The position numbers and the translations under genes are program-made. From the NCBI GenBank assembly GCA_020249925.1, contig JADCER010000005.1, forward strand, positions 372,001 to 436,000: 64,000 bases of DNA, given 5' to 3'. The notes beneath the pieces are model-generated. The model saw nothing but the letters and a program-made list of their open reading frames with translations. It did not search any database and was not told the origin of the DNA. Shown one piece after another: positions 60,820 through 63,971 of this stretch (position 1 is its first letter; each line of letters starts with the position of its first letter). This stretch comes from Roseomonas sp. Its GTDB lineage: Bacteria; Pseudomonadota; Alphaproteobacteria; Acetobacterales; Acetobacteraceae.

Positions 60820-60895
60820 GCCCAGATAGCTCAGTTGGTAGAGCATGCGACTGAAAATCGCAGTGTCGCTGGTTCGATTCCGGCTCTGGGCACCA
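60820..60895 (+). tRNA. tRNA-Phe (anticodon GAA)
   Basis: A 76-base tRNA with acceptor arms GCCCAGA (60820-60826) and TCTGGGC (60885-60891), then A and an encoded CCA end. The anticodon stem TGCGA/TCGCA closes the loop CTGAAAA with anticodon GAA at 60853-60855. The D arm has AGCTCAGTTGGTAGAGC and the T arm GGTTCGATTCC. Directly downstream begin phage-type genes, which makes its 3' end a likely integration site. Confidence 0.97.
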
Positions 60896-60942
60896 TTTTC
60901 TTGCACTAGCGCGTTGAAATTACTCATTTTCTAAATCGCGGC

Positions 60943-61055: not shown

Positions 61056-61445
61056 TCAGTCCCCGGCGCGCGGCACTCCGGTAACGATGGTGAAGGCCAT
61101 CAGGGCATCAGGGGCGCCCGATAGGCTTTGCCGGGTTTCGGGTGGGCAGATCACGTCTAACAGGGCTTTCGCAGCGGCGTGGCCTTGGGGGTGGGCCAGA
61201 TCAAGCGCCCTGCCAAGCTGGGCTTCAATAATCGCCTCGGCATGCGCCGCAATGCGCGCGCGCGCTTCCGTCGCCACCGCCTTGCCGGCGCTTTGCGCCT
61301 CGGGGCGCGGGCGGTTTTCTGGGCCAAAGGGGGCGCGCATGCCTCGGGCTGGGCCGCCCCATCCGGCGCCCATGCCGGGGCCTCGGGCCGGGCCGCCATA
61401 CCCCTTGCCATTGCCAGCCGGAAAGCTTGTGGCGTTTTTCGTCAT
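61056..61445 (-). CDS. Small phage-type protein, DUF5681/terminase-small-subunit-like (tentative)
   Basis: The 129-residue product starts MTKNATSFPAGNGKGYGG, with GAGG upstream. A glycine- and proline-rich N-terminal half resembles the start of DUF5681 proteins encoded near phage terminases, and the second half has AHAEAIIEAQLGRALDLAHPQG then AAAKALLDVICPPETR, the helical pattern such proteins show. The low-complexity part makes similarity by eye risky. It is the gene closest to the tRNA. A 14-base alternating CG run (61037-61050) follows its stop. Confidence 0.5.
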   Translation of the reverse strand: MTKNATSFPAGNGKGYGGPARGPGMGAGWGGPARGMRAPFGPENRPRPEAQSAGKAVATEARARIAAHAEAIIEAQLGRALDLAHPQGHAAAKALLDVICPPETRQSLSGAPDALMAFTIVTGVPRAGD

Positions 61446-61545
61446 GCGCGCCTCATAGCATAGATCAGCGCGGCGCGGGCGGGTTTCGCGTCCCTTGGGC
61501 CAGCCTTCCAGCCTGCCAGGATCAGGCGGATCAAAATCAGGATCA

Positions 61546-61571
61546 GATCACCCCCTTATAGGGGGGTGATC
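61546..61571. repeat. 10-base perfect palindrome at the head of the repeat array
   Basis: GATCACCCCC (61546-61555), loop TTATAG and GGGGGTGATC (61562-61571) form a perfect inverted repeat; with one mismatch the arms extend three bases further. GATCA motifs lie to its left (61520, 61529, 61541) and TGATCC motifs to its right, so it looks like a centre of symmetry. Confidence 0.7.
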
Positions 61572-61700
61572 CGATTGATCCGGGTTTCATCCGGGTTTCA
61601 TCCGGTTTAATCCGTTCCTTGATTTATCAATAATCCGGCTTTGATCCGGGTGATCCGAAAGGCGATTTCGTTTTCATCCGTTTTTGATCCGGGCAATCCG
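61569..61700. repeat. Phased array of eleven ATCCG motifs (iteron-like)
   Basis: ATCCG begins at 61569, 61578, 61589, 61600, 61610, 61633, 61644, 61653, 61676, 61687 and 61696. Steps are 9, 11, 11, 10, 23, 11, 9, 23, 11 and 9 bases, about one or two helical turns, so the motifs lie on one DNA face. An 11-base unit, CCGGGTTTCAT, is exactly repeated in tandem at 61580-61601. The array lies between the RepA-like ATPase gene and the small phage-type gene. It looks like an origin of replication or a regulator-binding array. Confidence 0.75.
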
Positions 61701-61728
61701 GGGCCATCAATTCGGGGCGGCTGGCGTG

Positions 61729-63036
61729 TCATGTCCCGGCCCGCCGCACCGGCCATGCAATCCCGTCCCGCACCGCCACCGCACCGGCTTGGCGGGCTTT
61801 TGTCATCGCGTCCCCAATGGCCCGGCGCCGGTTCTCGGTTTTCTCTGCCAGGCTTAGGCCGCGCGCATCACACTCGGCCCGCCAAGCTTCCACCTTCACC
61901 CCTTCAAGCCCTCGGGCATCGGGGAAGCCCGTCCCGCTTGGCAGGGGCGCGCCTCGGCCCTCGGCAATCATGTCTTGCAGGCAATCCACCGCCTTGCGCG
62001 CGGCGGGCGGAAGCTTGGCCCCACCGCCACCGGCGCGGCCCGCCTCGGCTTCAATCGCAAGGCAAGTATCCATCGGCGTCCCGTCTTCACGCTCGCCCAC
62101 TGTCACCACTTCCAAGCGGAAAGGCATTTCCGCCCCGTCTTCATCATCCTTGGCGGCTTGGACTATCGCCACACTCGGCGCGCCCTCGGCGCCTTTCTTC
62201 ACCTGCAAGATCAGATCGGCGGCCCCCATCAGGGCGCCCGATCCCCTTGGCGTCTTCGCGTCTTCCGCCTTCGCGCCGTGATGCACCACCACCACCGCCG
62301 CGCCGGTTTCGTGGCGTATCGCGTCACATTCAACCACGAATCCCCCCATGTCTTGCGCGGCGTCTTCGTTGCCATCGCCAAAGGTGCGGGCCAGCGTGTC
62401 AATGATTACCAGATCGGCGGCATGGGCTTTGGCGGCTTCGCGCAATGTTTCGGCGTCTTCGCCGGGCGGGCCAATCTGGGCAGGCTGGGCAATGATCGCA
62501 AAGCGCCCTTCATCATCCCCCAGGGCTTCGCGCAAAGCCTGCAACCGCGCGCCCATACCGCCCGCGCCCTCGGCGGCAACGTATAGAACCCGCAACGGGC
62601 GGGGCGCTTTCCTGCCCCACATGCCTTGCCCAAGCGCCAGGCCATAGGCCAAGCGCAGCGCCAGAAAGCTTTTCCCGCTTTTCGGCGCGCCCCATAGGAC
62701 AATCAATTCCGCCACCGCGAATAAGCCTTGCAGCAAATAGGCGCGCGGTGGGGCGTTCAAGATTTCCGCCACGCTATGAACGCGAAGCCGGCCATATTGG
62801 CGCGGCGGCGTTTCGATTACCGCGCCATTGGCTTGCAAGATTGCATCAGGATCGGCGGGCGCTTCCACCGGGGCGGGTTCCGGCTCAGGATCGGGCCCAA
62901 TAATCGGCGTCTCGTTTCCGTAGTCATCAACCGGCATAGCGCCCCAATGCTCCGGCGCGGCTTCATGCGGTGGCGCATCAAGCCAATCTTTCGGCGGATT
63001 GATCCGAATTTCTGCCGTGCTTTGCGCGTCAATCAT
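61729..63036 (-). CDS. RepA-like hexameric helicase/AAA_25 ATPase
   Basis: The 435-residue protein has an acidic proline-rich N-terminus (residues 40-65), then a RecA-type ATPase: Walker A WGAPKSGKSFLAL near residue 115, VLYVAAEGAGGMGARL, Walker B LVIIDTLARTFGDGNED near 207 and AVVVVHHGAKAEDAKTPRGSGALMGAAD split at 240-270 with the sensor region. This is the layout of RSF1010 RepA and phage replicative helicases. A C-terminal helical part with TENRRRAIGDAMTKARQAG may bind DNA. Its ATG overlaps the primase-like gene's stop by four bases. Confidence 0.85.
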   Translation of the reverse strand: MIDAQSTAEIRINPPKDWLDAPPHEAAPEHWGAMPVDDYGNETPIIGPDPEPEPAPVEAPADPDAILQANGAVIETPPRQYGRLRVHSVAEILNAPPRAYLLQGLFAVAELIVLWGAPKSGKSFLALRLAYGLALGQGMWGRKAPRPLRVLYVAAEGAGGMGARLQALREALGDDEGRFAIIAQPAQIGPPGEDAETLREAAKAHAADLVIIDTLARTFGDGNEDAAQDMGGFVVECDAIRHETGAAVVVVHHGAKAEDAKTPRGSGALMGAADLILQVKKGAEGAPSVAIVQAAKDDEDGAEMPFRLEVVTVGEREDGTPMDTCLAIEAEAGRAGGGGAKLPPAARKAVDCLQDMIAEGRGAPLPSGTGFPDARGLEGVKVEAWRAECDARGLSLAEKTENRRRAIGDAMTKARQAGAVAVRDGIAWPVRRAGT

Positions 63037-63971
63037 TGGCGCCCGCCTTTCAGGGCTTCATCCCAATCACCGGAAGGCGGGGCGATAATGCGCGCGGCCT
63101 TGCCTGCATTGCGCCAGCGTTGCGCGGTTTGCCTTGCGGCGGCCATTCCGGGCGGATCAGCATCGGCGAAGATCGCCAAGCTTTCGGCGCCGGGGACTAT
63201 CGGAAAGCGCCCCACCGCGCCCGCGCATGTTGCGGCCCATACAGGGCGCCAGCCTGCCCTTTGCATCACCGCAAGCGCCGTTTCTATGCCCTCGGCAATG
63301 CCAAGCGCCGGGCCTTCAAGCGGGGCCAGCCGGATCACGCCAGATCGGCCTAGCATCACCTTTACGCGCTCGCCCTCGGCCTTCGCCGATCCATCGGGCG
63401 CAAGATAGGTGCAATGGGTTCCCACCGGCTCCCCAGTTTCGGCGCATGTCATCAGCGCCAGCATGGCAGGGCCGGGCGGGCCGCAATCTTTGTTGCGCCA
63501 TGCCCTCGGGTGAAAGCGCAGCGGCGCGGCGTCTTCCAGGGTAAGCCCTCGGCTGGCGAGATACTTTTCCGCAAGCGTCCCGCGTGCCGGCATTGCTTCC
63601 GCCCACAAGCGCCGGGCCAGATCAGCCGTGCCACTCTCGGGCGGGCTTGCGGTGGGCGTAGGCGGCTTTGGTGGAAGCGGTGGGGTGTAACTACCAGGCG
63701 CAGCGCCAAGCCATGCGCGCGCCCACCGGAAGGCTTCGCGCGGCTCGCAGCGGCGGGCATGGCAGATCAGCGCCAAGGCGTCACCTTTCGCCGATCCGGA
63801 ATAATCGCAAAACGTCCCGCGTTTCGGCCCGGCAACCCGCACCGCAAGGGCGCCTTTTCTGCCAAAGCGGATTTCATCGCGGGCGCGCATGGTGGGCGCG
63901 GCTTGCAGCAATTCCAGCGCCAGCGGTTCGATCCGATCCGCAAGGGCGCTCTTCAATTCTTCAACCGTCAT
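63033..63971 (-). CDS. Toprim domain primase-like protein
   Basis: The 312-residue protein has an N-terminal domain with KRGTFCDYSGSAKGDALALI (residues 55-75), like phage primase DNA-binding domains, a linker rich in proline (about 95-110), then a Toprim domain with GIAEGIETALAVMQ and the acidic FADADPPGMAAAR near residue 265. A complete zinc-binding cysteine set was not seen. Together with the coupled ATPase it forms a primase-helicase pair that would start replication of the element. The start ATG is at 63971, and only 29 bases of the window lie beyond. Confidence 0.85.
   Translation of the reverse strand: MTVEELKSALADRIEPLALELLQAAPTMRARDEIRFGRKGALAVRVAGPKRGTFCDYSGSAKGDALALICHARRCEPREAFRWARAWLGAAPGSYTPPLPPKPPTPTASPPESGTADLARRLWAEAMPARGTLAEKYLASRGLTLEDAAPLRFHPRAWRNKDCGPPGPAMLALMTCAETGEPVGTHCTYLAPDGSAKAEGERVKVMLGRSGVIRLAPLEGPALGIAEGIETALAVMQRAGWRPVWAATCAGAVGRFPIVPGAESLAIFADADPPGMAAARQTAQRWRNAGKAARIIAPPSGDWDEALKGGRQ

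Follow-up and report, generated by a model that had tools for sequence, protein, structure and literature searches.

A phased iteron array directly 3′ of a RepA-like helicase gene is probably the replication origin of a small tRNA-Phe-integrated element in Roseomonas

The window, that is, the whole 64,000-nt stretch of Roseomonas sp. DNA that was analysed, contains near its right end eleven copies of the pentamer ATCCG that follow one another in a single orientation, immediately behind the gene of a RepA-like helicase. The questions raised by this locus are what such an array does and which protein reads it. Our main reading, to which we assign a probability of roughly 0.8, is that the array serves as the origin from which a small integrative element of phage-satellite-like type, residing in a tRNA gene, is replicated, and the adjacent helicase is probably the initiator of this origin.

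The array lies inside a 5,693-bp insertion bounded by 22-bp att direct repeats (Table 1). Among 11 same-genus loci examined, three (L151, L152 and L153) were identified as the empty site, because there the right flank, matched from its own first base at 92.7–94.0% identity, comes directly after the tRNA; the flank match begins 24–75 bases in for L154, L156 and L159, an 89-bp stretch of L157 is similar to the element's left part, and the remaining four had no match. All genes of the element are on the minus strand, comprising an integrase, an int-overlapping gene, an HTH_17-like gene (E 3.6e-5, under the curated cut-off with 24.4 of 27 bits), the primase and the helicase, then the array and a 129-aa gene. 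The original prediction had placed the array near a RepA-like helicase and a primase-like gene, and family searches confirmed both, as an AAA_25 helicase and a DUF7146 plus Toprim_3 primase. Two element genes (201 and 129 aa) had no significant family match; none was found for the int-overlapping gene, and for the 129-aa small gene none in Pfam, PHROG or NCBIfam, searches that remote relatives could escape. A role of the small gene as terminase small subunit was thus unsupported by any family match. In other replicons of this kind, the gene downstream in L109, which is not of the small-gene type, matched DUF5681 (Pfam E 3.1e-12) and weakly TerS (PHROG E 0.0031), while in L112 a gene further on matched Terminase_4 (E 1.7e-12). 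About 1.7 kb right of the distal att and past the window, a gene for an MT-A70 methyltransferase and then one for a BglII-type restriction endonuclease stand in succession (L050:7748-9189).

Table 1. Coordinates of the features of the element (positions in the window unless a locus is named).
Feature	Position	Strand	Remarks
tRNA-Phe (gaa), integration site	60820..60895	+	
att direct repeat, 22 bp, tRNA-Phe 3′ end	60878..60899	+	partner 5,693 bp on, L050:6071-6092, past the window
129-aa small gene, 3′ of the array	61056..61445	minus	not tied to the array
Three inverted iterons	61519..61545	+	GGATCA at 61519, 61528 and 61540; same in L066
26-bp palindrome	61546..61571	no strand	arms carry the iteron; GC-rich with an AT centre
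Eleven direct iterons	61569..61700	minus	ATCCG on +, CGGAT in the helicase sense; same array in L066
AT-rich 18-bp gap inside the array	61615..61632	no strand	14/18 A/T; candidate melting site
RepA-like hexameric-type helicase (AAA_25), proposed initiator	61729..63036	minus	directly 5′ of the array in its own sense
Primase, DUF7146 + Toprim_3	63033..63971	minus	4-bp overlap with the helicase start
int-overlapping gene	L050:3966-4511	minus	past the window; 1-base overlap with the integrase stop (TAATG)

On the plus strand the ATCCG copies start at 61569, 61578, 61589, 61600, 61610, 61633, 61644, 61653, 61676, 61687 and 61696, leaving gaps of 9, 11, 11, 10, 23, 11, 9, 23, 11 and 9 bp, and in the helicase sense CGGAT is followed by [C/G/T]A in 10 of the 11 iterons, the first of which begins 28 bp from the helicase stop. 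Elsewhere in the window at most three ATCCG per strand were found in any 132-bp stretch, and other 5-mers reached at most eight per 132 bp (GCGCG and CGCGC, overlaps counted). When the local composition was simulated 20,000 times with a Markov-1 model and the motif fixed, the ATCCG maximum was six compared with the eleven observed; with any 5-mer allowed and overlapping copies counted, eleven was reached in 45 of 3,000 simulations. The helical phasing of the copies gave a resultant of 0.90 near 10.8 bp, which was equalled by 0.31% of 20,000 random spacings of the same span with a 9-bp minimum. Genome-wide, 9 of 19 matches to ATCCG triplets fell inside the array and the other 10 were scattered. 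These results bear out the original prediction in its count of same-orientation copies spaced by 9–11 or 23 bp between 61569 and 61700, in their placement on the same DNA face and in a regularity beyond GC bias; the flanks, where an equal motif density would have spoken against it, are sparse.

Three further iterons in inverted orientation were found across a palindrome from the eleven-copy array; both the inverted set and the palindrome were absent from the original prediction. Opposed iteron sets of 11 and 3 copies lie on either side of the palindrome, which is GC-rich apart from a short AT centre; this centre in the helicase sense reads CCC-TATAA-GGG and is a form of a core, CCC-T(T/A)TA-GGG, that recurs in relatives. 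None of 200 shuffles folded as well as the DNA of 61500-61720 (z -5.2), and an RNA-family search returned a single sub-threshold match (21.5 bits vs a gathering value of 90).

Related helicases were then surveyed for arrays. At E ≤ 0.001 the helicase search gave matches in 56 of the 200 genomes of the family, and at E ≤ 1e-10 in 15 of the 385 genomes of the class, the own genome included in each; it also gave matches in 8 named contigs and in 104 phage and 13 plasmid records. Family and class matches were fetched in part, weak family matches least, while 5 phage and 7 plasmid records were picked by hand, with 62 Mycobacterium phage records left out. The array test was applied to 82 loci, two of which were dropped for short downstream DNA, and the 80 remaining are not independent: several genomes contribute more than one locus (G045 two, G153 four), and L050 hardly differs from L066. 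Within [-60,+400] of the helicase stop, a 6-mer array at p ≤ 0.01 was found in 48 of these 80 loci, with 32 of 44 among close relatives (HMM E<1e-60) and 16 of 36 among weaker ones (E ≥ 1e-60), and 39 of the 44 loci at p ≤ 0.005 had no equally dense control window. Among IMG/VR viral contigs found by the helicase, an array followed in 20 of 24, a set containing probable duplicates (L131/132, L136-138, L141/142 and L145/146). Twelve of the 44 close relatives failed the test, and L070, L108, L118 and L124 (in its L037 part) were positive by eye. The array was absent by both eye and test in L068, L077 and L110 and by test in L087, and none was found behind the helicase of Caulobacter phage GB2A or of a Photobacterium plasmid.

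The array motifs differ widely, being CGGACA, GGGACA, GGACA or CAGACA in relatives, CGTGACA in Rhizobium phage 16-3, GTATAAA in Roseobacter phage CRP-831, GCGCAACA in a Methylobacterium plasmid, GGCGGAGATA in Rhizobium phage RHph_N65, TGCGGCA in a Klebsiella plasmid prophage and of AAGTGA type in a satellite-like element of E. coli. The closest case is L066, in which the array is kept, so that its feared absence from similar elements did not occur. Between L066 and the window, 182 of 185 positions of the array-palindrome region (98.4%) and 293 of 390 of the small gene are identical, and the helicase is 97.9% identical (third positions 419/436). Helicase and array being conserved to the same degree, this pair indicates co-inheritance, and the case for an extra constraint on the array is weakened.

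In these relatives the arms of the palindrome vary with the iterons, while its centre is nearly constant. A regular expression for the core matched 21 of 44 close-relative regions vs 16 of 990 control windows, 2 of 36 weaker relatives and 6 of 24 viral contigs found by the helicase. Among the 27 core-bearing loci the centre was TTTA in 13, TATA or TATAA in 8 and another sequence in 6, and the iteron orientation flipped across the core in 22, where the sense was set by the orientation of most copies ahead of the core, and where the palindrome by itself accounts for one inverted copy beyond the core. The window locus is one of the five loci not scored as flips, because the automatic 6-mer ATCCGG misses the GGATCA copies; the near-identical L066 was scored as a flip.

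A search of viral contigs by DNA alone, using one form of the core within its arms (GGACA-CCCTWTAGGG-TGTCC), matched at least 120 contigs. Among the matches listed, an ORF for this helicase ends -100 to +700 bp before the palindrome in 96 of 120 contigs, at a median distance of 88.5 bp, and when positions were drawn at random from these loci, 7.9% of them had such an ORF end; of the 69 cores that are not symmetric, 64 show TTTA when read in the helicase sense. Of the 24 contigs without an adjacent helicase among these listed matches, 7 have the site within 500 bp of the locus end. In the 17 other misses (L193, L204, L223, L233, L266 and L270 among them) it lies at least 500 bp from the locus ends, and 14 of these 17 pattern-only contigs, again among the matches listed, had no helicase match at all; such sites may belong to a different initiator or to a helicase that has diverged.

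To which protein the array belongs was evaluated by co-variation over 643 pairs from 37 loci, namely those at both p ≤ 0.01 and E<1e-40 together with L070, L108 and L118, which were added by hand. Iteron similarity correlated with the identity of the helicase C-terminal domain (CTD) given the ATPase (partial rank r = 0.32, permutation p = 0.0005), and with ATPase identity given the CTD at r = 0.15 (p = 0.023), both by a Mantel permutation that ignores shared ancestry. In a single Dankookia locus, L072, the best ATPase segment is 58% identical and the C-terminus is different; the GGATCA iterons are absent, the core is kept and the array test was not significant, which looks like a natural case of a CTD change re-addressing the origin. 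Core-bearing replicons encode either Toprim_3/DUF7146 primases (L070, L109) or Prim-Pol (L074, L112, L115), and since the core occurs with both types it does not follow the primase; the notion that it is a primase site was rejected.

The helicase core itself is a RecA fold related to RSF1010 RepA: by profile, 1g8y was the only chain at E ≤ 0.01 (E 6.5e-8), and the first Foldseek match was 1nlf, also RSF1010 RepA (E 2.0e-11), with other RecA-fold helicases aligning equally well by VIA. At the C-terminus, two models agree on the elements H344-361, E378-381, H382-391, H400-416, E420-423 and E426-429, with block pLDDT of 62-91 in one and 78-95 in the other, and from this H-E-H-H-E-E order residues about 341-430 are predicted to form a winged-helix-like domain. 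A profile search of the PDB with the CTD matched no winged-helix chain; its strongest hits, at E 0.0016 and 0.0052, were repeat proteins of TPR type, with no stretch significant alone, and the fold-search matches reflected the ATPase.

As an alternative, the original prediction had offered a cooperative repressor array, in this case an operator controlling the small gene at 61056-61445. The array indeed consists of phased direct-repeat DNA about 124 bp upstream of that gene, and one of four homologues of the gene in the genus keeps it (L163, which is the L066 locus). The other three homologues (L164, L165 and L166, 49-66% identical) have different upstream DNA, judged by eye as a TGAGCA-type repeat of 6 copies, a GTGACGCA-type repeat with 4 copies of its best 6-mers, and no clear repeat, respectively. 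In other replicons, moreover, the gene following the array differs or sits on the opposite strand whereas the helicase before it stays, and no promoter of the sigma-70-like type, the type scored for, was found in 61300-61900. Control of the small gene is thus disfavoured, and we regard it as very unlikely. These three homologues sit in other surroundings than the one in the element; in L165, a different repeat lies behind a gene other than the small gene, and this other gene may resemble those for VapE-type proteins.

The co-variation with the CTD, the Dankookia locus, the mixed primases and the small-gene homologues lacking the array together identify the helicase as the constant partner. In the sequence comparisons the array type follows the helicase C-terminal domain rather than the primase type or the downstream gene. 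Of the proposal that the array is an iteron origin read by an unknown initiator, the origin is supported by its fixed 3′ position, by the arrays in relatives and by the array keeping to the helicase instead of the downstream gene, and the unknown initiator probably gives way to the helicase. Nor is an initiator encoded further right needed, as had been suggested, since only the HTH_17-like protein, the int-overlapping gene and the integrase are encoded right of the primase and the helicase CTD tracks iteron similarity.

Iteron arrays serve partition, incompatibility or packaging roles in some plasmids, and the satellite-like character of the element would suit a site of this kind to which some other protein, not the helicase, binds. 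No ParA/ParB-like match was found among the element proteins scanned, however, and in phages, in plasmids and in islands the site is accompanied by a replicative helicase, so that we consider this explanation as improbable as control of the small gene. A terminator or attenuator ending the primase-helicase operon, with the direct repeats incidental, deserves slightly less credence still: the palindrome folds strongly and scores terminator-like on the minus strand (14 pairs, tail CCTGATTTTG, weak T tract), but the region holds 2 terminator-like sites where shuffled sequences average 1.0 (sd 1.2), the T tract is missing after the palindrome in several relatives (e.g. L109 and L112), and the many iterons, the orientation flip and the CTD co-variation would be left unexplained.

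Returning to the array as replication origin, we infer binding, opening, priming and replication there as follows. After excision, the RepA-like helicase would bind the iterons through its C-terminal winged-helix-like domain, and the phased sites on one DNA face would gather several protomers. Iterons converging on the palindrome from its two sides would position the helicase over the AT centre, or else over the AT-rich gap beside it, and there the duplex would open; the Toprim primase encoded just upstream would prime, and a host polymerase would extend.

Among known systems, P4 alpha combines a Toprim-type primase and a helicase with an iteron-type origin; it is a single chain, and its helicase family is different from that of the element. 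According to Fillol-Salom et al. 2018 (PMC6092414), the origin of a PICI directly follows rep on its 3′ side and has two sets of iterons with an AT-rich region between them, a cloned EcCICFT073 rep-ori supports a plasmid, the organisation is stated to be shared by no other known bacterial replicon, and E. coli PICI Pri-Rep is described as distantly homologous to P4 proteins. As in the PICIs and SaPIs outlined there, the present element has int, an excision/AlpA-type gene, primase and rep, with the putative origin immediately 3′, and like Gram-negative PICIs it has unidirectional genes and no structural genes. Unlike the PICI layout of that account, the helicase here is RSF1010-RepA-like (AAA_25), the iteron flip is marked by a polar CCC-T(T/A)TA-GGG palindrome that recurs among relatives, and the layout also occurs behind helicases of the complete phages 16-3 and CRP-831. 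As for an AT-rich region, the two opposed iteron sets here have the AT-centred palindrome between them, and the AT-rich 18-bp gap lies inside one set.

The PICMI model, in whose main text the word 'iteron' is absent (PMC10803314), is described with integration at fis and a DUF3987/DUF5906 primase. Like it, the element is very small and has int, an int-overlapping gene (here by 1 nt), an AlpA/HTH_17-type gene and a primase; unlike it, the element lies in tRNA-Phe and has a Toprim primase and a separate helicase, and so differs from PICMIs in the defining site and primase. In gene order the resemblance to both PICIs and PICMIs is good. The helicase core is shared with RSF1010 RepA/RepB′/RepC (structures 1g8y, 1nlf, 1olo), whose mechanism is treated in PMC4234260. 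In that paper, pRN1 ORF904 likewise has a C-terminal winged helix, here predicted, and an origin stem-loop just 3′ of its own gene, and differs as an SF3 helicase joined in one chain to an archaeo-eukaryotic primase, with no iterons. PLE RepA binds iterons but is given as a RepA_N protein (PMC7145576). The best reading is thus a PICI/SaPI-like rep-ori module in layout with an RSF1010-RepA-type motor, and by analogy it would work like these systems, a resemblance that need not mean common descent.

We also lean, with a good deal of reserve, towards a wider reading, in which the locus belongs to a widespread, unnamed class of phage and satellite replicons that pair an RSF1010-RepA-type helicase bearing a C-terminal winged helix with a directly 3′ origin made up of a near-invariant polar CCC-T(T/A)TA-GGG hairpin and rapidly rewritten iterons. 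Swapping or diversification of the CTD would re-address the origin and create private origins without cross-initiation, and the constant core would represent a shared, direction-setting opening step. Neither the array nor the core was named in the titles and abstracts found, a weak test with partly loose terms and thin coverage of the subscription literature. If true, a short DNA signature with an adjacent helicase would give a means of finding the origins of many phages and satellites that lack annotation, and the helicase CTDs with their matching iterons would offer a natural series for studying how initiator specificity evolves. In an E. coli element encoding AlpA, a RepA-family helicase, an SSB and a capsid gene, repeats were also seen 3′ of the helicase (L083:2545-3945 and downstream), from which some enteric satellites may share this type of replicon.
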